The notes beneath the pieces are model-generated. The model was given only the letters and a program-made list of their open reading frames with translations, was not told where the DNA came from and ran no database searches. From positions 1 to 33,287 of the IMG/VR virus record IMGVR_UViG_3300006484_000033: a stretch of 33,287 nt of DNA. One strand, 5' to 3'. The stretch's first letter is position 1. Every line of letters begins with the position of its first letter. Shown here in pieces: positions 9,530 to 25,874 of this stretch. Position numbers and translations under genes: made by a program. Origin of the DNA: a virus.

Positions 9530-9985
9530 ATGACATTCCAAGAATTCTGTCAGGCCTTTATATTATGGTCTGAATCAATTATTGAAGAGAAAAAAATCGA
9601 TGGCTTCCCAGTGTGTCCATATGCCAAACATGCAAGGTTGACCAATGCAGTACAGTTTATCGATGCCCGAGTAGATATACAAGCACTGCGTGAGTTTGAT
9701 AAAACAAAATATGAAATAGGTATTGCTTGGATAGGTGATAATGATATACAATTAAAATCTGCAGAAAAATATGCAGATTATTTGGTGAATCTAGATCCAG
9801 AGTTACTATATTTTACAAGTACACCAGATAGCGGGTTCTTTGCAAAGAATTTCACCAATTGCGTTTTTATTCAGCTTAAAGCTGATATTTTAGAAAGAAG
9901 AAGCCAGCTACATAATACAACGTATTACGATAGCTGGCCAGCTGAGTATTATAAAGCTATTACTGGTCATGATAAACTATCATGA
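9530..9985 (+). CDS. hypothetical protein with CPYA motif
   Basis: 151 aa, not recognised. Near the N-terminus, after an amphipathic helix (TFQEFCQAFILWSESIIEE), is the motif GFPVCPYAKHARL. A Cys-Pro-Tyr/Phe-Ala motif in this position recalls redox or metal-binding small proteins, but no second metal ligand pattern is obvious. There is no signal peptide. There is no good ribosome site before the ATG. The gene ends inside the stop region of the convergent chaperone extension: the two stop codons overlap by 6 bp (9980-9985), with no terminator between them. Confidence 0.62.
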   Translation: MTFQEFCQAFILWSESIIEEKKIDGFPVCPYAKHARLTNAVQFIDARVDIQALREFDKTKYEIGIAWIGDNDIQLKSAEKYADYLVNLDPELLYFTSTPDSGFFAKNFTNCVFIQLKADILERRSQLHNTTYYDSWPAEYYKAITGHDKLS

Positions 9986-10189
9986 GCTGCGTGATTTTTG
10001 TATAGCTGCGTTTTTAGCTTCATTTCGTTTATTAATTGATTCAATTAGTAATTGGATTGCAGGGACTGGCATAGTCATTACATCCTGATAACTTACTGCG
10101 CCCCCACTATGTAGTATTAGATCTGTGTATGATGTCTCAGTAGCAACAAGATCTTTATTGTAGCGCTCTATTATTTTTTCAATACCCAC
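9980..10189 (-). CDS. frameshift extension of gp26-like chaperone (GT-like tail)
   Basis: 69 codons from a GTG at 10189, with no ribosome binding site in front of it. The frame is open upstream without a stop back through CCG CAG AGT ACT GCC to the slippery site in the gp26-like gene at 10225-10219. It is in the -1 frame relative to that gene. It is therefore best read as the T part of a G/GT pair: a -1 shift would yield a 353-residue product (274 codons of the gp26-like frame plus 79). The tail is helical and charged (IEKIIERYNKDLVATETSY ... LLIESINKRNEAKNAAIQ). Independent initiation at the GTG is the alternative. Confidence 0.66.
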   Translation of the reverse strand: MGIEKIIERYNKDLVATETSYTDLILHSGGAVSYQDVMTMPVPAIQLLIESINKRNEAKNAAIQKSRSS

Positions 10190-10190
10190 C

Positions 10191-10225
10191 GGCTGACTAG
10201 TGGCGATCAGCCTACGAAAAAATTT
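10191..10225 (-). promoter_or_regulatory. programmed -1 ribosomal frameshift signal
   Basis: Minus strand. The heptamer A AAT TTT at 10225-10219 is aligned with the zero frame as X XXY YYZ (Asn273-Phe274 of the gp26-like protein) and lies in a run of six T. After a 6-nt spacer (TTCGTA) comes a perfect 6-bp stem GGCTGA (10212-10207)/TCAGCC (10196-10191) with a 10-nt loop. The zero-frame TGA is part of the stem. In the -1 frame no stop occurs before the downstream 69-codon frame, which continues to 9980. All three parts (slippery site, spacer and stem) fall within the ranges typical of bacterial -1 frameshifting. Confidence 0.72.
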
Positions 10226-11040
10226 GCAATATCTAAATCAACATCAGTTGACCAATTGTGGCCGCATGTCTGGCATGTTGCTTTGAAGTTAGTGTCAATT
10301 GCTGGCTTTGATAATTGCTCCACCAAGTCTTTGATCATTTCATAGTCAACTTTTGTGATTGTTTGCAGCCATTCGTCAATTGTTTCTGCGTCAGTCACAA
10401 TTTCTCCAGATTCTGCAAGCGTAACTGATGTAATAGAATTTGCTACAAGTTTAATTGTTAGTTCTGCTAATTCTACAAACGTGCGTCCAAAAATATCGCC
10501 GCGTTGATCTTCATCAATTTCTGTTGAAATTAAACTTTCAATCATTTTCTTTTGTTTTATTTGTTGAATTTGCAAGAGTGTTCTATCTTTTAAATTATAT
10601 GGTTTAAGACCTATTTTAAATTCATTTTTAAGAACAATACAATCATCTATTTTAATCTGCTTTGCAGATGCCAACACACGGTTAGCATCAACTGCTAGCA
10701 TGTTTAGTTCACTGCATGATGGACATTTTACATCAACGTTCAAATCTTTACCATATGTTGCTTGTCTAATAGCAAGCAAAATAACAAGTAAATCATTAAC
10801 TGGTACAGTGTCGGGATTCGCAATATCTGGACAACAGCTACGAATAATAGCACTCGTAGCTTCACCGTTAAACAATGCATCTGGCGTCTTTGTAATCAAT
10901 TCATCTCTGGCAGTCATAGCATATACTGCTAAATCACCATCTACACTTAATTTTGGTTTTATATCGTAGTACTTTCCACCACTTGGTAAAGTAACGTATA
11001 GCGAAGGCTTTCTATAAGCCTGTATCAATAAGTTTGACAT
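10207..11040 (-). CDS. 26: gp26-like baseplate hub/tail assembly chaperone
   Basis: 277 aa from the ATG at 11040, preceded by GGAG 9 nt upstream. A TTG five codons earlier is possible but less likely. The N-terminus follows the T4-like gp26 pattern: KPSLYVTLPSGGKYY, MTARDEL, and then LLAIRQATYGKDLNVDVKCP. Two CxxC pairs, C106-x-x-C109 and C256-x-x-C259, suggest a zinc knuckle formed between the two ends. In T4 gp26 is needed for hub assembly. In other long-tailed phages the proteins at this place act as tape-measure chaperones made in two forms by frameshifting, and a frameshift signal is present at this gene's end. It is transcribed divergently from the tape-measure-like genes, from a late promoter at 11086-11093. 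Confidence 0.8.
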   Translation of the reverse strand: MSNLLIQAYRKPSLYVTLPSGGKYYDIKPKLSVDGDLAVYAMTARDELITKTPDALFNGEATSAIIRSCCPDIANPDTVPVNDLLVILLAIRQATYGKDLNVDVKCPSCSELNMLAVDANRVLASAKQIKIDDCIVLKNEFKIGLKPYNLKDRTLLQIQQIKQKKMIESLISTEIDEDQRGDIFGRTFVELAELTIKLVANSITSVTLAESGEIVTDAETIDEWLQTITKVDYEMIKDLVEQLSKPAIDTNFKATCQTCGHNWSTDVDLDIANFFVG

Positions 11041-11115: not shown

Positions 11116-13776
11116 GTGAACATTGAACGAGAACTAAAACGTATACAAAGTCAACATAAGTGGGCCAGTGAGCAGACTCTATCTAGAGTTATGAATTTGC
11201 TCGGGGCTAACACTAAGCAAATAACAAAAGCTATTAATGATATTCAAATACAACAATATAACGAAAAAGACTTACTTAAAATAATTAACAGTCAAAAATC
11301 TAAAATTGCAAAATTTACTTCAACTTCCAAGAGTTTAAATGAAGTATTAAAAACTACAGTTTATGGACGTGACACAAATCCAATAACAGCTACTTCTGAA
11401 TTAGTTGAAATGGCCGCCGGCGCAATTGCTGATCATGGTTTATCAAGTAACGCAGCCGCTGATGGAATACAAACTGTTTTTTCTAAAATTGGCGGAGTTG
11501 CAACTGGGATAGCTGGTATCACTGCCAGCACTGCTGGAGTAATAGCAATTTATGGCCAAATATTCAGTGAACAGGAAAAGGTTTTACGTGCAGGCATTAA
11601 CATGGGTGTATCATTAAATACTTCCAAGTACACTGAAATGAATACTACGTTTGCAGGATTAGGAAGATCTATTAATGAAATTTTTTCTGAATATAGACGG
11701 CAAATGCCAATGTTTGCAAATTTACCAGGAACCGCAGGTGATAACTTAATCAAATTTGCAAATTTGACAACTGTTATAAAAAATGATAATTCTTTTCCTG
11801 ACTTTGGATATACTACTGGGCAGGTCATGCGAAGACTTGTGGATGAAGCAGAGATTATTAGACGTTACGGCGGGTTAGCTGATATGAATACCCAATCAGA
11901 AAAAATAGTTTATGACAGATTTATCAAGAGTTCCACCGCAGCTACCGTAATGGCTAATTTATTAGGCGTTAAACGAGATGACTTACTGTCCACTCGTCAA
12001 GAGGCAGCAAATGATTTAAACTTTACGATAACTGCAAGATATGCCCAATCTGATTTAATAGACCGATATGGCGCCACCGCATACGATAATGTAGTTGATT
12101 TTCAAACAAATGTATATACTGTGTTTAGTACCATTTTTGATGGGAAGTTTGCTAAAGAAACATCTAATCTGATGACCCGAGCTATAAACGATCAGAATTT
12201 TGATGATGTGATGGCAAACATGAGTCCAGAATTAAATCAAATTTTGAATTTTATGGGCGATAATGTTAAAGAACAATATGTAGCAATGATACAGTCAGCT
12301 GTCAAGGGAAATTTAAGCGGGGTTGATTCAGACTTAGCTATACAGGGATTTATACAATTAGTTGCGAAATCAACACCGTTAGAATCAATAGGAAACATAT
12401 CAGATCCTATAGTGCAGGAAGTTATGGAAATGCAAGCACAAGCACGCCTTGCACCTGAAAGTTATATAAATGCAACTAGATCATTACTTGAACAACATCG
12501 CAATAACGTTGCAGCATACACTGAATCAGCAGATGGTATTGTAGACGGTATGGATAGCATACGTAGAGCATTTTTACAGATATCAAGAATTGCATCCCCT
12601 GGTTTTGGTACCACTGGTGATATAGTTGATGGTTTTGGAGACACTCTACGTTGGCTAACTGATGTTATTGGAGAAGTTTTAGGCCCATTAGTTAACTTTG
12701 ATCCGGTAGTTGATGATGAAGGATCCGGTGTTATATCAGCCCCACCTCGCCCAAGTTGGTGGCAAAGTAATGGATATATTCATTCTAGTCCAAGACATCC
12801 GCAAAATGAATGGGACAGTCAATTTGGCGAATACTTTAGTGAAGATGGGACACTAATAGAAGGCGCAGATGTACAACTTGCTGCTCAGGCAGTTTCTGTA
12901 GGTCCAACTGGTGCTACGACTGCTGAGTTATCAGGAATATCAGCTGATCCAAGTTCAGGCGGAACACTTCAAAATGGACGACTTCCCGCAGGTGAATTGC
13001 AGTCAATCACTGGCGGCGGCAGATTGCGCGCCGGCGCTGCTGATGCGTTTAACAGAATGGCCTCCGCTGCTGCTGCTGACGGTGTTACTATAACACCAAG
13101 TTCGACATACCGAGATATAGAAAAACAACAACACTTATGGAATACATCAACTAGGCCATTATCAGAAAGAAGAAAATGGGTAGCATATCCAGGCGGTTCG
13201 AATCATGGATGGGGGCTTGCTTTTGATGAAGGTAATATATACCGACAGCATGAATCCGCTCCACAATATCAATGGTTACGTAATCATGGTATTGAGTATG
13301 GATTTTATCAGAGAATGGCACATGAGACTTGGCATTGGGAATACACTGGAGCCCCGGGTACATCAGATGTTACAACTGCTGACCCAGCATCACCATCAGT
13401 TGCAACTTTGCCAGTTGATACTGATCCAGTAAATAATGACGCCACTGCCGTTTCCTTGCCAGTAATACCATCGTTATCTACAGTAGATAATAATACATCT
13501 TTATTGCCAGTACCAGTAACACCATCGTTATTTGCTGTAGATAATGACGCCACTGCCGTTTCCTTACCAGTAATACCATCGTTACCTACTGTAGATAATA
13601 CTGAAGTTTCTGATGATACATCTTCTTTAATTGATACTTACAGTAATTCACAAGATGCATCTATTACTGCCTTACTTGAAGACGAATTACAATCCACATC
13701 ATTAATTGAACAAAGCTGGGCATCTATTGTGGAATTCTTTAATAATGAAGAAACAAATGAAAGGATTACACAATAA
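11116..13776 (+). CDS. tape-measure-like protein A with M15 (VanY-type) peptidase domain
   Basis: 886 codons from a GTG (ribosome site weak; no better start nearby). Residues about 1-500 are helical with a hydrophobic segment near 124-150 (GVATGIAGITASTAGVIAIY). They share blocks with the two following genes: GRDTNPI, SEQEKVLRAGINMGV, DFGYTTGQVMRRLVDEAE, LLGVKRDDLLSTRQEA. A Gly/Ser linker leads to a zinc DD/LD-peptidase domain of the M15B family at about 640-745: SSTYRDIEKQQHLWN, GGSNHGWGLAFDEG (ligands H697 and D704), and HETWHWEY (E737, ligand H740). It would cut stem peptides of peptidoglycan. A Pro/Val-rich tail with three 18-residue repeats follows. The stop overlaps the next ATG by one base. 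The role is inferred: tail protein that opens the cell wall during DNA entry. Confidence 0.8.
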   Translation: MNIERELKRIQSQHKWASEQTLSRVMNLLGANTKQITKAINDIQIQQYNEKDLLKIINSQKSKIAKFTSTSKSLNEVLKTTVYGRDTNPITATSELVEMAAGAIADHGLSSNAAADGIQTVFSKIGGVATGIAGITASTAGVIAIYGQIFSEQEKVLRAGINMGVSLNTSKYTEMNTTFAGLGRSINEIFSEYRRQMPMFANLPGTAGDNLIKFANLTTVIKNDNSFPDFGYTTGQVMRRLVDEAEIIRRYGGLADMNTQSEKIVYDRFIKSSTAATVMANLLGVKRDDLLSTRQEAANDLNFTITARYAQSDLIDRYGATAYDNVVDFQTNVYTVFSTIFDGKFAKETSNLMTRAINDQNFDDVMANMSPELNQILNFMGDNVKEQYVAMIQSAVKGNLSGVDSDLAIQGFIQLVAKSTPLESIGNISDPIVQEVMEMQAQARLAPESYINATRSLLEQHRNNVAAYTESADGIVDGMDSIRRAFLQISRIASPGFGTTGDIVDGFGDTLRWLTDVIGEVLGPLVNFDPVVDDEGSGVISAPPRPSWWQSNGYIHSSPRHPQNEWDSQFGEYFSEDGTLIEGADVQLAAQAVSVGPTGATTAELSGISADPSSGGTLQNGRLPAGELQSITGGGRLRAGAADAFNRMASAAAADGVTITPSSTYRDIEKQQHLWNTSTRPLSERRKWVAYPGGSNHGWGLAFDEGNIYRQHESAPQYQWLRNHGIEYGFYQRMAHETWHWEYTGAPGTSDVTTADPASPSVATLPVDTDPVNNDATAVSLPVIPSLSTVDNNTSLLPVPVTPSLFAVDNDATAVSLPVIPSLPTVDNTEVSDDTSSLIDTYSNSQDASITALLEDELQSTSLIEQSWASIVEFFNNEETNERITQ
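13438..13599. repeat. 54-bp in-frame tandem repeat, 3 units
   Basis: Units at 13438-13491, 13492-13545 and 13546-13599 encode 18-residue blocks of the form DATAVSLPVIPSLSTVDN. The first and third are nearly identical at DNA level, the middle one is diverged. It is the C-terminal linker of the M15-bearing protein, and its length is likely variable. Confidence 0.85.
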
Positions 13777-16604
13777 TGTCATCACCTATTGAAAATGCAG
13801 TTCTTACAATTGATTCTATGTATCCATGGGCAAAAGAAGTCACGTTAGACAAAGTATTTGCACATGCATTAAAAACCAATTTATTATTGAATCAAGCATT
13901 AGTACAAATGGGAAAAGGCAAGGATATTTCAGCTGATATTGTTAACGCCTTTAATATAGAACGTGATGGTGCTCTGACTTCAATTTTAAAAAAATCATCA
14001 ACTGGATTTGATAAAACTATCAAAGGTATAAGCAGAGACACAAATCCGCTGTCAACTGTTGCTAATATTGCTGAAGACTTTGCATGGGCAGTACAGGAAT
14101 CCACTGATAACCTTGCCAGAAACAGTATCATAAGCACACTTGCTCCGGTAGTATCCAAGACAGCTATTATAGCAGGAGTAGGAGTTGCAGGAACTTTTAC
14201 TGTTGCACGAATGATAGCCGAATATGCAACAGAACAAGAAAAATCATTAAGGGCAATGATTGGCTTAGGAATAGTCGCCGGCGATATGAATATGTATACT
14301 GATTTTAGAGACTCTGCTGCTTCATTGTCAATGAGTTTTGGATCAATGATAGATACATTGCAAGAATTTAATATGTCTATAGCACGATTGAGCAATAATA
14401 CAACAACTGGGTATAATAATTTTTTAGACTTTGTTAATAATGTTGATTCTGGAGAAGCTGGAATATCAAATTTTGGTTACACTGGGCAACAGCTTGCTAG
14501 AAGATTGTCTGAAGAAGCGCGGGTGCTAACAAGGTCAGGACAAATAGATAGTCTTAATAATTCAGCCAGGGCAAAGATAGCTGATAGTTTTCAAAAAATA
14601 ACTGCATTTGCTATAGGTATGGCAAATTCTACTGGTATTGAAAGAGACAAATTATTAGAAGCACGTAGTAATGCTCTTAATGAAGTATCTCATATAGTTG
14701 CTATTAATAAATTTGCAGGATTATTAATAAACGATGAAAATAAAAATGCAGTAAGACGCAGTGAAATGGCATATGGAGAACTTGCACAAGTAAGCGAAAT
14801 GCTTGGTCCTGACATGGCAAAGCAATTGCTAGAATGGGTTGATAGAACACAATATGATATTGATGTTAATACAACATCACTGGATAATATTCAACAATCA
14901 TTACAAAATACTTTAACTTTTCTAGGCCCTGACGCTGTAGGAATATTTGCTAGCATTGTTGAAAAAACAGCATTTGGACATTATGAAAATCCAGGAGAAC
15001 TGTCATATGACTTCCAGCAAGCATTGACTTATCTTCGTGAATCTCGGCCAGACTTTAGAATAACATTTAATGAAACAACTTCGGCTGCCGGCCACGTGAG
15101 AGATATGGCATGGCTAGCTTCTGAAGAATTTATGAATGCATCCAAGTCGCAATTAAACTTTACTCCTGAATTAGTAAACCGCGCAACTGTAACCGCTGGT
15201 GCAGTTGTACAAGGAATTGATGATGCACGTGAAGCAATGCTACGTGTATATTCTGATCTGGCTCCAGGGTTTGAGGCAACTGGAAATGTTGCATCTACGT
15301 TCGGAAACAAATTGACTGCACTACAAGATATATGGAGTGATATATTTAATGTAACAGAAATAAACGTAACCACACGACAAGATCGAGCTGCACAAGCAAG
15401 ACAAGATCGTATACAATCTAATAATTTTTTACAAGGTAAAACAGATCTATCGTACGATGATGCAGTAAGATTATCCAGTAGCATGGCTTCACAAACAGGT
15501 GTTGTTAGTGGATCAACCCTAGGCTATTCTGGTATATCGTCAACAACATCTGGTGCATCAAGAAGTGGCGGTGGGTATTCGCCCATTAATGTCACTTCAA
15601 GTCAACCATGGGCGCAAGACAGGGAATTTTTAGCAGAAGTAGACAGAGTAGCACAGCGTTTTGGGTTTAATCCAAATGCGCTATTAGGACTTATGGCTTC
15701 TGAAAGTGGGATAAACCCGCAAGCAAGAAATACAAACGGCGGCGCGACTGGATTAATACAATTTATGCCGTCTACAGCACGTGGGCTAGGGACAACGACT
15801 GATCATTTGATTACACTCACCAGAGCACAACAAATGCCTTGGGTAGAAAAGTATTTTGAACCTTATGCTAGTAATTTAGCTGGTGCTAGTGCTGGTAAAC
15901 TATACGCATATGTATTCCTGCCAGGCAGAGCGCACAGAGACGTATTAACATCACGTGGTGAAAATTACTATAATCAAAACGTTGGATTGGATATGAACCG
16001 CGACGGTGCAATAACCATTTCTGACTTAGATCAAAGAGTTGCAAAATCCGCTAGCAGTCGAGGTATTGATTTGTCATCATCCTCTGTTCCAGAAGTACAA
16101 ATTGAAAATACAACACCTGTCCCTGTCCCTGTCGACATACACCCAACTGATTTTGAACCACCTGATCCAGTAGATAGAACATCAGCACCAGCATTGCCAC
16201 CACCAGAAGGTGTCGCACCTGTGCGCGAAACGGTTGTTACCCCTATGACGACAGAAGTGCCAGCCGCGCCGAACATGCCAGAGCTAGCGCTAGAGCCAGA
16301 GCCAGCATTGGCGCCTGAATCAGCGATACCAAACACTAATGGGACATGGCTAGAAAGATTAATGGATTGGCCTTCTGTTTTTGGTGGAGATGATGAAATA
16401 TCGGCACCAATACAGCCAACGGCTCCATTATTAGCACCAACAGCAATAGAAGATCCAATAAATACAAATACAATACCAGACACTGCTTTAGATAATGAAA
16501 CTCTTGAAGATTTGCGCAGCGTTGATGAAGAAATACGCAATACAGCACTCCGAATAACAGACACGATGATTACAAACGAAGCAGTAGAGAGAACAACTAA
16601 CTAA
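13776..16604 (+). CDS. tape-measure-like protein B with lytic transglycosylase domain
   Basis: 942 codons. The first half is a paralogue of the upstream gene: GISRDTNPLSTVAN, TEQEKSLRAMIGLGI, NFGYTGQQLARRLSEEARVL and GIERDKLLEARSNAL, with a hydrophobic segment TAIIAGVGVAGTFTVARMI near 128-147. At about 620-720 there is an SLT-type goose-lysozyme-like domain: FGFNPNALLGLMASE with catalytic E643, then GGATGLIQFMPSTARGLG. It would cleave the glycan strands. Directly after it lies a calcium-loop-like motif D739-M-N-R-D-G-A-I-T-I-S-D750 (EF-hand/dockerin type), then a Pro-rich tail. The stop overlaps the next ATG. Glycan cutting here complements the peptidase on the previous protein. Confidence 0.82.
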   Translation: MSSPIENAVLTIDSMYPWAKEVTLDKVFAHALKTNLLLNQALVQMGKGKDISADIVNAFNIERDGALTSILKKSSTGFDKTIKGISRDTNPLSTVANIAEDFAWAVQESTDNLARNSIISTLAPVVSKTAIIAGVGVAGTFTVARMIAEYATEQEKSLRAMIGLGIVAGDMNMYTDFRDSAASLSMSFGSMIDTLQEFNMSIARLSNNTTTGYNNFLDFVNNVDSGEAGISNFGYTGQQLARRLSEEARVLTRSGQIDSLNNSARAKIADSFQKITAFAIGMANSTGIERDKLLEARSNALNEVSHIVAINKFAGLLINDENKNAVRRSEMAYGELAQVSEMLGPDMAKQLLEWVDRTQYDIDVNTTSLDNIQQSLQNTLTFLGPDAVGIFASIVEKTAFGHYENPGELSYDFQQALTYLRESRPDFRITFNETTSAAGHVRDMAWLASEEFMNASKSQLNFTPELVNRATVTAGAVVQGIDDAREAMLRVYSDLAPGFEATGNVASTFGNKLTALQDIWSDIFNVTEINVTTRQDRAAQARQDRIQSNNFLQGKTDLSYDDAVRLSSSMASQTGVVSGSTLGYSGISSTTSGASRSGGGYSPINVTSSQPWAQDREFLAEVDRVAQRFGFNPNALLGLMASESGINPQARNTNGGATGLIQFMPSTARGLGTTTDHLITLTRAQQMPWVEKYFEPYASNLAGASAGKLYAYVFLPGRAHRDVLTSRGENYYNQNVGLDMNRDGAITISDLDQRVAKSASSRGIDLSSSSVPEVQIENTTPVPVPVDIHPTDFEPPDPVDRTSAPALPPPEGVAPVRETVVTPMTTEVPAAPNMPELALEPEPALAPESAIPNTNGTWLERLMDWPSVFGGDDEISAPIQPTAPLLAPTAIEDPINTNTIPDTALDNETLEDLRSVDEEIRNTALRITDTMITNEAVERTTN

Positions 16605-19225
16605 TGGCAGATAGCACAAATAATATTACATTACCTACCGGTGAAACAATTGCTATCCCTGCTTGGGCTAGTGAAACTACACTTCTGGGATTAGTTGCAC
16701 AAATGCAACTCAGTAATGACATTGATAAAAAACTTGTAGATGTTATTAAAGGAAATGCTGTTGACACCAGCAACATTAGCCAATCTGTCAGAGATGCATT
16801 TAAAAAATTAAGAGAACGCCGCCAACAAGATTCTGAAGATGAAAATAAAAGAACAGCGCAGTTAGCAAAATCACTTGCTAAACGAACATCTGATATTGTT
16901 GGAAAATTTAGTAATACTGAAGCACCTCTTACTAGTCTAGTCGACGCAGCTAAAACAGCATCTGCTGGTTTTGGAAAATCATTAACTGGGCTGAAAGATG
17001 CTGGCGGCAGCATGGGCGCTCTAGGCAAAACACTAAGCAATTGGGCTCCTGGTGTAGAAGCATTGGGCGATGCCGCATTCGCATGGTTGGGTTTTAATGC
17101 TGCAAAAATAGAACAATTTGCAAAAGCTCAAGAATCTATGATAAATTCTGGTGTAGTTTTCAATCAAGGCGCCGCTACATACGAGGATCTATATACTACT
17201 GCTAGGAAAGGTGGTATTACTTATACTCAATTAGCTGGTATAGCTGGAGAATATGGACAAACACTTCAAATGTTTGGTGGTGGAGTTTCCAGAGGAACAC
17301 AAGTTTTTGCTGAAATGTTTAAGGAAGTAAACCGCTCAGCAGATTCATTTGGTGACTTTGGTATGAGTAATGAACAAATGGCCAAGGCATTTGCTGACTA
17401 CATTACAGTAGCACGTAATACTGGTGAAGTCAATAGAAATACAAACAATGCGCAGGTAAAACTACAGAATGGATTCAGAGACTTAATGCTAGAAACTGGT
17501 GCATTGGCTAGTTTAACCGGTAAAAGTCGTGATGAATTGCTACAAGCACGTGCCGCTGCACTTAGCGCCCCTCAAATAGCAGCAGCATTACGTAGAATGG
17601 AAGAAAATTACGGCGAAGGTGCTAAATTTACTACAGGTGCTAAAGAAGTATTAACCCAGCTAGCATATGGGCAAGAGCAGCTTGGTGGGGTAGGAACAAT
17701 ATTATCAAACGCAATTGGTGCTGCACTAGCCACAACCGCTGATCACATTGAAGATTTCGACGTCAAAGATGCTCTAGTAGGAATGGGCGGCGAAGCGACT
17801 ACTATGATGCAAGCATTGCAAACATCTGGATCACCAGTACTAGATCAAATTAACGAAGCTATTAGAACTGGACAAGTTGCAGGCAACGACATAAGCAAAT
17901 TTATTTTAGACGGCATTAGAACAGCAGGGCAAAATACTATTATTATGGCACAAGGCGCTGGAGATGCACTGAGTCCAATTAACCAAGCATTGATTGAATT
18001 GAGAACTGCGGGAACATTGCTGGATACTGACATGGGCAACTATTTAAACATGTCCGAAGAACAAACATCTGCTGCACTTAGTCAATATAAGCGTGATATT
18101 GAGGAAGCAGGAAAGACTACAGAAGGCTTCAATAACGCTACTATGGCAGTGTTAGCAGTACAGGATGCATTAACTGTTCCACTGGATTTTGCAGGAGACG
18201 CAGCAGATGCACTGGGAAGTGCAATGCTAGCTAGTGTGCAAGCGTTTGACAGTCTTTTTGGCGAAAAAACTACAGAAGAAACTCCAATTGCTAGCCCAGT
18301 AGATCAAGCTGATATTTCCGCTACGGCTGTCAGAAGTATGGGCGTCGATGGTTTTGATCCCACTGACCCATATAGAGATCCAGCACTTGATAGCATGTAC
18401 CAAAGTAATGTAATTACTATTCGAAATATTGAACCATTTGATCAAGCTAGATTTGACGAGTTAGGCGGCGAATACGAATGGCAAACACACAGAGAAGCAG
18501 CACTTGACGGCCAACAAATATACAAACACCAATCAGGTATCACAATGTATATGCCGCCTGGTAGATTTAGCGGCGGCTCAGTATCTGCAAATACGCCATA
18601 TATGGTGGGAGAAAATCGTCCAGGTGGATTAGGTGAACTTTTTGTTCCAGACCAGTCTGGATTTATCATGTCACATGAACAAACATCAGAAATGATGCAA
18701 AATAGAATTAATACAGTTTTAGGTCTTGCTAATGCATTTAATACACTACAGGGGTCAATACCAAATGTAGAAATAGCTGCAAAACAAATAGTTCAATTAA
18801 CTGAACTAGCATCAACTATAGGCAACAGTATAGGCAAGATAATAAACTTTGGAGGATCTAGCTCACCAAACAGTACGGTGTTCGACAATGCAACATCGCA
18901 AATGCCCGCTGCTAATAATGCAGACCCAATTGGAATTCGTGAATCACAAGCAACTGTCAATAATGCAGACCCAATTGGAATTCGTGAATCACAAGCAACT
19001 GTCAATAATGCAGAACCAATTGGAATTCGTGCATCACAAGCAGCACGAATCAATACCGATACAATTGCTGACGCAGCAAAAAGTAATAATACTTCAAGTA
19101 ATTCATCAATTGATGAACAAGTAAGACAGATAACAGAAATAAAACGTAAAAATCTTGAGATTATGCGAAATCTTGAAGAGATAATAAAACGTTATACTCG
19201 ACGATCTGATCCTCTGAGAGCATAA
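16604..19225 (+). CDS. tape-measure-like protein C
   Basis: 873 codons. The shared region is again recognisable though more diverged: AKAQESMINSGVVFNQGA, GDFGMSNEQMAKAFADYITV and TGKSRDELLQARAAAL. No enzyme domain is seen. At about 640-690 it has the C-terminal signature common in tape-measure proteins: FSGGSVSANTPYMVGENRPG followed by GELFVPDQSGFIMS. A 15-residue repeat (three copies of NNADPIGIRESQATV type) and a charged helix end the protein. By this signature it is the best candidate for the actual length ruler (gp29 role in T4), though larger than T4 gp29 (590 aa). It overlaps the previous gene by one base and ends the operon. Confidence 0.75.
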   Translation: MADSTNNITLPTGETIAIPAWASETTLLGLVAQMQLSNDIDKKLVDVIKGNAVDTSNISQSVRDAFKKLRERRQQDSEDENKRTAQLAKSLAKRTSDIVGKFSNTEAPLTSLVDAAKTASAGFGKSLTGLKDAGGSMGALGKTLSNWAPGVEALGDAAFAWLGFNAAKIEQFAKAQESMINSGVVFNQGAATYEDLYTTARKGGITYTQLAGIAGEYGQTLQMFGGGVSRGTQVFAEMFKEVNRSADSFGDFGMSNEQMAKAFADYITVARNTGEVNRNTNNAQVKLQNGFRDLMLETGALASLTGKSRDELLQARAAALSAPQIAAALRRMEENYGEGAKFTTGAKEVLTQLAYGQEQLGGVGTILSNAIGAALATTADHIEDFDVKDALVGMGGEATTMMQALQTSGSPVLDQINEAIRTGQVAGNDISKFILDGIRTAGQNTIIMAQGAGDALSPINQALIELRTAGTLLDTDMGNYLNMSEEQTSAALSQYKRDIEEAGKTTEGFNNATMAVLAVQDALTVPLDFAGDAADALGSAMLASVQAFDSLFGEKTTEETPIASPVDQADISATAVRSMGVDGFDPTDPYRDPALDSMYQSNVITIRNIEPFDQARFDELGGEYEWQTHREAALDGQQIYKHQSGITMYMPPGRFSGGSVSANTPYMVGENRPGGLGELFVPDQSGFIMSHEQTSEMMQNRINTVLGLANAFNTLQGSIPNVEIAAKQIVQLTELASTIGNSIGKIINFGGSSSPNSTVFDNATSQMPAANNADPIGIRESQATVNNADPIGIRESQATVNNAEPIGIRASQAARINTDTIADAAKSNNTSSNSSIDEQVRQITEIKRKNLEIMRNLEEIIKRYTRRSDPLRA
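18914..19048. repeat. 45-bp in-frame tandem repeat, 3 units
   Basis: Units at 18914-18958, 18959-19003 and 19004-19048. The first two are identical by eye and the third has a few changes. They encode NNADPIGIRESQATV near the end of protein C, so slippage would change its length in steps of 15 residues without breaking the frame. Confidence 0.92.
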
Positions 19226-21267: not shown

Positions 21268-22173
21268 ATGAGAGCTCATGACCGATATACTAAGATTATC
21301 GAAAGCCTAGTAAATGGTGATTCAGTTTCAGCTGAAGATCTACTACACGAAGCATTTGTTGAGAAAGCCCGCGAGATCTGGAGTGATCTTGTTGAGCAAG
21401 ATGAAATCGTTGAAGATGACATCGCAGAAGAAGAATTAGACGAAGCATTTGGTGATGAAGAATCAGATGACTTCCTAAACGACATCGAAACATCAGACGA
21501 CGAAATCGAAGCTGAAGAAGCATTCGGCGAAGCTGAAGATGAAGATGGCGGCGAATTAGATGCAGACCTAGAGCTAGCAGCTGATGACGGTTTCGACACT
21601 GACGAAACTGAAACTGAAGATGGCGACGACCGTATTGAAAATGCTATGATGAGTGTTGAAGATGCGTTGTCAGATCTAAAAGCAGAATTTGCAAAGCTAA
21701 TGGGCGACGACATGAATGACGACATGGACAGTGACGAAGAAGGCGACGAAGAAGGCGCAGACTTTGAAGTTGGCATGGACGACGAGATGTCAGATGACTC
21801 AGAGGTTGAAGAAGAATTTACTTTTGAAGCTGAAGAAGACTTAGAAGAAGATGCTGAAGAACTAGATGAATCAGCTGAACTACACAAAGTCGGTGCAGAT
21901 AAAAAAATCCATCCAGTTGCAATGCCAGCAGGCGATGACGGCAAATCATCACCAGTTAAAGGCAAGCCAGCAATGGGCGGTTCACTACTAAACACAGGCC
22001 ATGCTAAAGAAGCAGGTCGTCCAGCACCAAAAGTACAAACAATGTCAGGTTTCAAACACCCAGGCGAAGGCGCATCACTAAACACGATGTCCAAAGGCCA
22101 CGGCGCAGAGAAAAAAGGCCAAGCACCAGCTAAGCCAGGCACTGATTCAATGATTAACAAGGCTCCTAGGTAA
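21268..22173 (+). CDS. acidic prohead core protein (gp67/gp68-like)
   Basis: 301 aa, with a strong ribosome site (AAGGAG at 21255-21260). After a short ordered start (MRAHDRYTKIIESLVNGDSV) residues about 45-205 are extremely acidic, with runs such as DEEGDEEGADFEVGMDDEMS. The C-terminal 95 residues are Gly/Pro/Lys-rich and basic. It lies directly before gp21, where T4 has its core proteins gp67 (acidic) and gp68. It would fill the procapsid and be cut up by gp21. LDE|A near residue 57 fits the (L/I)xE cleavage rule. It is longer than either T4 counterpart. The exact equivalence is uncertain. Confidence 0.65.
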   Translation: MRAHDRYTKIIESLVNGDSVSAEDLLHEAFVEKAREIWSDLVEQDEIVEDDIAEEELDEAFGDEESDDFLNDIETSDDEIEAEEAFGEAEDEDGGELDADLELAADDGFDTDETETEDGDDRIENAMMSVEDALSDLKAEFAKLMGDDMNDDMDSDEEGDEEGADFEVGMDDEMSDDSEVEEEFTFEAEEDLEEDAEELDESAELHKVGADKKIHPVAMPAGDDGKSSPVKGKPAMGGSLLNTGHAKEAGRPAPKVQTMSGFKHPGEGASLNTMSKGHGAEKKGQAPAKPGTDSMINKAPR

Positions 22174-25223: not shown

Positions 25224-25874
25224 ATGGCATCAGTTATCAATCCAGACAATGGAGAATTGAAAATTTTAGGCGCATTGGCAGTTGCCAATGGTTTAACATT
25301 ATCCGGAAAATTATCAATTGATAATTTATCGGACATTGATCTAAATACCCCAACATACGGCGACGGTGCATTAAATGTATTAGGCGGCGGTTACTTTGGC
25401 GGCCATGTATATGTAGGCGGCACCCTTGTTGCAAACGGCGACGTGATCACTCTTGGTAACAGCGGCGGAAGCCTAACACTTAACTCAAACATTAGTAGTG
25501 ACATATTGCCTGCCTCTACTAGCACTTATGATATTGGATCGCCAACCTCAGAATGGAATTATGCATTCTTTAAAAATGTCGTATTAGATTCAGCTGAAGA
25601 ATATGTTAATACTAGTATTTCTATTTTACAAGCAGTATCTTATATTAATTCATCCACTAATAACGCCGTCACAATGCTCAATGGACAACATAATGGTCAA
25701 ATAAAAGTTCTAGTGGCCGTTGAAACGCCTATATCAGCAGTACAAGTAACACCAGATAATTTACTAGGGTTTACTAGTATTATTTTTGATACCGAAGGCC
25801 AAACTATCACTTTAATGTATACTTACGCTGGCTGGGCAGTTATTTCTAACCGCGGCGCCAGCTTGGTTATATAA
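25224..25874 (+). CDS. short fibre/appendage structural protein
   Basis: 216 aa, with GGAG 6 nt before the ATG. Beta-rich repeats typical of trimeric fibres: LKILGALAVANGLTLSGKLS, VGGTLVANGDVITLGNSGGS, and then DILPASTSTYDIGSPTSEWN. The last block recurs in the 393-aa protein at 27601 (DILPSTDNTYDLGSAAQSW), so the two are related fibre components. The C-terminal 80 residues (SISILQAVSYINSSTNNAVT ... YAGWAVISNRGASLVI) form a distinct beta domain, probably a tip or capping domain. The host receptor is unknown. Confidence 0.7.
   Translation: MASVINPDNGELKILGALAVANGLTLSGKLSIDNLSDIDLNTPTYGDGALNVLGGGYFGGHVYVGGTLVANGDVITLGNSGGSLTLNSNISSDILPASTSTYDIGSPTSEWNYAFFKNVVLDSAEEYVNTSISILQAVSYINSSTNNAVTMLNGQHNGQIKVLVAVETPISAVQVTPDNLLGFTSIIFDTEGQTITLMYTYAGWAVISNRGASLVI

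Follow-up and report, generated by a model that had tools for sequence, protein, structure and literature searches.

A predicted −1 frameshift yielding short and long tail-assembly chaperones from gp26-type genes of T4-like phages

The gp26-like gene of the viral contig analyzed here very probably encodes a short and a long tail-assembly chaperone (TAC-N and TAC-NC), the latter made by programmed −1 frameshifting, as judged from sequence conservation. The contig comprises 33,287 bases and was analyzed over its whole length (the window); the genes adjoining the gp26-like gene are T4-like and encode a portal protein, a prohead protease, a major head protein, a late sigma factor and an SbcC/D-like nuclease. 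A first-pass annotation of this DNA had proposed that this T4-like phage uses a −1 shift on a gp26-type gene. The shift was supported by our analysis, but not as a device peculiar to this phage, since it is near-universal among the sampled gp26 genes of non-T4-even phages: a U_UUU_UU(C/U/G) site followed by an unannotated or mis-annotated C-terminal domain was present in nearly every one of them, including those of jumbo phages of 300-490 kb. The features of the locus are as follows.

10207..11040, minus strand: gp26-like gene, short form TAC-N, ATG start, 277 amino acids; PF12322, PHROG 150, ribosome site GGAG.
10219..10225, minus strand: overlapping heptamer A_AAU_UUU, in phase; limited to the window and two close relatives, L007 and L010.
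10216..10222, minus strand: likeliest slippery heptamer, U_UUU_UUC, codons Phe274-Phe275, chosen by its in-phase conservation.
10191..10212, minus strand: stem-loop GGCTGAT-CGCCACTA-GTCAGCC, 3 nt past U_UUU_UUC; arms invariant in the clade.
10209-10207, minus strand: zero-frame stop codon TGA, within the 5' arm of the stem.
10187..10189, minus strand: GTG of the 69-codon ORF, an unlikely start; absent in L007 and L010, no Shine-Dalgarno-like sequence.
9980..10222, minus strand: −1 frame, predicted TAC-C domain, 80 codons plus stop; ends with TGA at 9982-9980.
11116..13776, plus strand: divergent neighbor, 886-amino-acid tail protein with a partial tape-measure match (PHROG 16823).

The protein of 277 amino acids matched PF12322 (T4_baseplate; E = 8.5e-23, 81.6 bits versus a curated cut-off of 24.5) and PHROG 150 (baseplate hub; 1.8e-23), and the ribosome site GGAG was found shortly 5' of its ATG. 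An AlphaFold model of this protein (pLDDT 80.7) matched T4-like baseplate hub assembly proteins with E-values down to 6e-25; a comparison with solved structures in the PDB gave no significant match. Among 159 weak Foldseek matches, the HK97 tail assembly chaperone 2ob9 ranked seventh with a probability of 0.35; its TM of 0.47 on the target goes with a non-significant E of 1.6, and a likeness of the HK97 protein to the predicted gp26-like fold is at most hinted at. The 3' end of the gp26-like gene reads GCA AAT TTT TTC GTA GGC TGA on the minus strand. Slippage would fuse the 273 residues up to Asn273 to 80 residues starting with FFRRLI, giving a TAC-NC of 353 amino acids with the predicted fusion-junction peptides ...DIANFFR and LIATSQPVGIEK.

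In the 886-amino-acid neighbor, the match to PHROG 16823 (tail length tape measure; 2.4e-22) was confined to residues 618-751, a segment of 134 residues which is also matched by peptidase and endolysin families. A lambda-like gene order was not found in the window, where the gp26-like gene lies neither directly upstream of an evident tape-measure gene nor on the same strand as one; T4 gene 26 likewise is not located just upstream of a tape-measure gene. A convergent ORF of 151 amino acids (9530-9985, plus strand) overlaps the final 6 bases of the −1 frame and gave weak matches to PHROGs of unknown function. Three large ORFs among the structural genes (16604-19225, 21268-22173 and 25224-25874, all on the plus strand) gave no PHROG match.

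A survey of 76 non-identical gp26 3' ends, taken from named phages and IMG/VR and grouped at 70% protein identity into 32 lineages, was used to compare the homologues. The slip site, its phase and the open −1 frame were very strongly conserved, and so was the lack of a usable start. The refuting evidence named in the first-pass annotation, relatives without the heptamer or with stops in the −1 frame, was looked for in this survey, and the proposed shift withstood the check. As claimed in the first-pass annotation, the −1 frame of the window runs without a stop from the slip site into a 69-codon ORF; it continues to the TGA at 9982-9980, and the product sizes of 277 and 353 residues were recovered as well. 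All relatives bearing the run of six T had 58-82 codons of open −1 frame. Furthermore, purifying selection acts on the −1 frame beyond the zero-frame stop, with a pN/pS of about 0.3, the values for the pairs formed by the window, L007 and L010 being 0.12/0.38, 0.19/0.57 and 0.16/0.62. The other two frames showed no synonymous excess or a reversed one, save that one pair had a slight excess when read in the +1 frame. Between slip site and stem, a block of 22 then 13 nt was invariant in the window, L007 and L010; just 5' of the slip region, gp26 synonymous sites differed at 72-95% within this clade. With the −1 product as query, tblastn hit the corresponding frame and position in SCTP-2 (E = 2e-3) and, weakly, in Hallingskeid (E = 0.8), and a homologous C-domain was also present at the equivalent place in alignment A2. 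PHROG and Pfam searches with the −1 domain alone did not recognize it. It is practically impossible that the −1 frame is a non-functional overlap left open by chance. In first-order Markov simulations, a random −1 frame remained free of stops over 76 codons in 0.6% of cases, so that such a frame is not impossible at a single locus; chance, however, would have to produce the frame again in 30 of the 32 lineages and would not leave purifying selection in that frame.

The first-pass annotation had placed the slip on A_AAT_TTT at 10225-10219, and direct reading of the minus strand verified that this heptamer is in phase. A second canonical heptamer, T_TTT_TTC at 10222-10216, which overlaps the first in phase, had been overlooked. 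Within the final 15 codons, 30/32 gp26 lineages carried an in-phase T_TTT_TT(C/T/G), against a background of 3 T_TTT_TTN among 7797 codons in the remainder of the same genes; A_AAU_UUU occurred in the survey only in the window, L007 and L010. The two Phe belong to the few residues that are invariant in alignments of the gp26 family, most members of which are 18-32% identical to the window protein. Because of this conservation in phase, the restriction of A_AAU_UUU to one clade and the invariance of Phe-Phe, the slip is most likely to be assigned to U_UUU_UUC, and the earlier choice was not upheld. The 6-nt spacer given with it holds as counted from A_AAU_UUU; counted from U_UUU_UUC, the spacer to the stem is short, namely 3 nt. 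Proximity to a stop codon was also examined across the window (27 main ORFs with 9,819 codon positions): the pattern X_XXY_YYZ with Y = A/T occurred 33 times in phase, and only the two gp26 heptamers were located ≤60 nt from a stop.

Slippage on A_AAU_UUU (10225-10219) instead of U_UUU_UUC is improbable. This heptamer is canonical and in phase, its spacer of 6 nt is the more usual one, and it is kept in all three members of the clade; however, it is missing from all other lineages even though U_UUU_UUC is retained there. It exists because the window clade has an Asn ahead of Phe-Phe, and by that codon it arises by chance. The codons that follow are identical after either slip, and therefore the same protein would result from both heptamers, which could both contribute. 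Possibly, A_AAU_UUU is an accident of the Asn codon that adds to slippage on U_UUU_UUC.

Downstream of the slip site, the 6-bp stem described earlier, GGCTGA (10212-10207) with TCAGCC (10196-10191), was found as stated including the zero-frame stop, and a U-G pair extends it to 7 bp (GGCTGAT/GTCAGCC). Both arms are invariant in the window, L007 and L010 amid about 70% nucleotide identity. In L010 the stem reaches 10 bp with a folding z of −7.9 over 35 nt; over the same length, z is only −1.0 in the window, which is unremarkable, and −1.5 in L007. An additional CCAC/GTGG pairing between the loop and downstream bases had been suggested, but the downstream bases are GCAG in L007 and TACA in L010. 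Since this pairing is not conserved, a pseudoknot was rejected, whereas the sequence supports a simple stem as a putative stimulator.

Other lineages possess different hairpins at similar positions, for example GCCCTC/GAGGGC in Prochlorococcus phage P-HM1, and in many lineages a strong hairpin follows the slip site. In Atu_ph07 (L003, 2326-2425) a long paired element starts right after the slip site and folds with −34.7 kcal/mol over 100 nt. Phosso (L014) has a paired element at the matching place; this one and that of Atu_ph07 reach about −33 to −35 kcal/mol and enclose a second hairpin. A Shine-Dalgarno-like GAGGG or AAGGG was observed 8-10 nt 5' of the heptamer in L006, L025-L028, L030, L032, L034 and the cyanophage-like L035-L086. 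These carriers are cyanophages and several relatives of 160-250 kb; the cyanophage GAGGG is located at 9-10 nt, as is usual for −1 stimulators in bacteria. Such an element upstream of the heptamer was absent in the jumbo group, the window included, and several jumbo relatives showed neither a strong downstream structure nor a Shine-Dalgarno-like element.

No start codon is conserved in the −1 frame. The 69-codon ORF had been described as lacking a ribosome site and, indeed, no Shine-Dalgarno-like sequence precedes its GTG at 10189-10187 (TTTTCGTAGGCTGATCGCCACTAGTCAGCCGGTG). L007 and L010 have lost this GTG, and their −1 frame offers no start codon before residue 47-48 of 81; separate initiation at the GTG was therefore rejected. 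In PA5oct the C-domain contains no ATG, GTG or TTG anywhere. For these reasons a free-standing C-domain gene, whose translation would begin close to the gp26 stop (in the window from the GTG at 10189) by reinitiation or translational coupling, is very unlikely. Public annotations do treat the C-domain as a separate small gene, and an ATG overlaps the gp26 stop in 121Q, RHph_I1_9, Ps15, D490, K364 and S-CRM01, in which a free C-domain and the frameshift could both operate. Against a separate gene, the conserved FFRxxLL residues lie upstream of most candidate starts, and T4 gp51 has the C-domain fused to a gp26-like N-domain. It is very unlikely that RNA polymerase, by adding or dropping bases on the run of six T, creates mRNAs with fused frames. 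The conserved element is a homopolymer run, as transcriptional slippage would need; yet polymerase slippage is indifferent to codon phase and usually needs longer runs, whereas the T run always stands in the X_XXY_YYZ phase and measures 6-7 in all lineages. Downstream hairpins and an upstream Shine-Dalgarno-like element at a fixed distance also suit ribosomal shifting.

Public annotations of SCTP-2 (gene 87; L001), Hallingskeid (CDS0411; L002), PA5oct (L004) and Syn19 (gp51; L006) either omit the −1 domain or list it as a truncated gene of its own. The 'gp51' annotated in cyanophages (e.g., 45 amino acids in Syn19) is the −1-frame tail counted from an internal ATG. The near-universal slip site and C-domain provide a simple annotation rule for gp26 and gp51 in T4-like phages.

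Profile comparisons related the fusion product to T4 gp51. The fused profile of the cyanophage group aligned with gp51 along its entire length and across the junction (98.3%, E = 9e-14); T4 gp26 matched only the N-domain of this profile (E = 1.6e-21). An end-to-end alignment was also obtained between the fused profiles of jumbo phages and cyanophages (E = 4.6e-32); a direct comparison of the jumbo fusion profile with T4 gp51 was not significant (6%). Across the family, the fused protein is collinear with gp51, and by way of the cyanophage profile the predicted fusion product of the window is as well. T4 carries 26 and 51 as two separate genes in divergent orientation, and gene 26 ends with GAG TTC TTT GAG TTA CTA, in which there is no slippery heptamer. 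Hence, gp51 would be a natural one-frame version, with N- and C-domain, of the product predicted for the window, and the phage of the window differs from T4 in using a frameshift and a clade-specific stem. Otherwise the gp26/gp51 chaperones of T4-like phages resemble those of the window: they belong to PF12322, share the N-domain between the short and the long form, and have a poly-T site near the 3' end. T4 gp26 and gp51 have been listed as hub assembly chaperones (PMC3004832). The long form would give the poorly understood but essential gp51 a testable role.

We infer that slippage occurs, at which rate, what the stem contributes, and that the products act as chaperones. One gene would thereby provide two forms of the tail or baseplate-hub assembly chaperone of the T4 superfamily. 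Most ribosomes would read gp26 to its stop and produce the TAC-N of 277 amino acids. A minority would pause with Phe-tRNAs on U_UUU_UUC, probably through the stem-loop 3 nt downstream that contains the stop, slip back by one base onto UUU UUU and continue in the −1 frame, which would yield the TAC-NC of 353 amino acids with a gp51-type domain at its C-terminus. In the manner of lambda G/GT, the tape-measure or hub protein would be coated with many copies of the short form and few of the long one, whose C-domain would bring in a tail-tube or baseplate partner.

The lambda G/GT system and the window have in common a short zero-frame protein, a −1 extension and a slippery heptamer near the stop. 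This likeness lies in the arrangement: the heptamers differ, that of lambda being G-rich, and the window gene is not directly upstream of a tape-measure gene on the same strand. According to a 2016 review, lambda-type G/GT frameshifting is widely conserved in long-tailed phages with T4 as the exception, and neither the G nor the GT form is found in the virion of lambda (PMC5009743). In Vandenendeviridae and Andersonviridae, among them phage Adele, a −1 shift likewise takes place where TAC-N ends, on a T-rich sequence that is conserved, and the C-domain is routinely mis-annotated as a separate gene, as in relatives of the window (PMC12846349). These are other phage families, and their slip site is GTTTTT and not U_UUU_UUC (PMC12846349). 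Vladimirov et al. (2022), in the form in which later papers cite them, described, for T4-like phages, TAC-N genes with poly-T slip signals (PMC12846349) and, in some of these phages, a short gene accompanied by a long fused gene located separately (PMC10885494). Because frameshifting in T4-like phages has, by these citations, already been reported, the mechanism is not new; our survey firmly extends gp26 frameshifting to jumbo phages. The study by Vladimirov, Gautam and Davidson reportedly found frameshifting conserved in several T4-like groups, T4 using genes 26 and 51.

Vibrio phage K364 (L033, 1380-1460) has no run of six T but CTTTTTGCGTAATGATGG, and an ATG overlaps the stop. Relatives of K364 were sought in viral contigs and none were found.

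A sister clade that includes L020 (LR756508.1, a 484-kb uncultured phage), L099-L109, L111-L113, L115 and L116 carries the C-domain homologue in the +1 (or −2) frame. The gp26 genes of this clade end with a conserved TTC TTT TGG CCT, or AAC TTT CTA in L020. Their C-domain aligned with the −1 C-domain of jumbo phages (97%, E = 3.5e-11), and the fused products aligned end to end (E = 1.4e-31). Purifying selection was restricted to the +1 frame (e.g., pN 0.15 vs. pS 0.87 for L099/L104), and the +1-frame C-domain of L099 and L104 contains no start codon before +76. The shift would probably take place at UUU U/C ahead of the UGG or CUA codon. A −2 shift is formally possible, but as far as the sequences can be read, re-pairing after −2 would be poor in most members.

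L110 and L114, which belong to the same sister clade, carry the C-domain in the −1 frame, where it begins with an ATG located beyond the zero-frame stop; no slip site was seen, and this arrangement looks like a split into two genes. In the gene tree, a single clade (100/100) held the +1 and separate-gene members, and the −1 jumbo phages (94/88) lay outside it, with mixed support inside the jumbo group. Quite likely these chaperones are orthologous and keep the short/long pair while the recoding varies among −1 (U_UUU_UUC, in the majority of T4-like and jumbo phages), +1 (sister clade) and separate genes (T4, L110 and L114). They would represent a natural series in which recoding signals change and the product stays constant. 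The sister clade with its +1 C-domain is a new-looking lead; its members are huge and marine phages.
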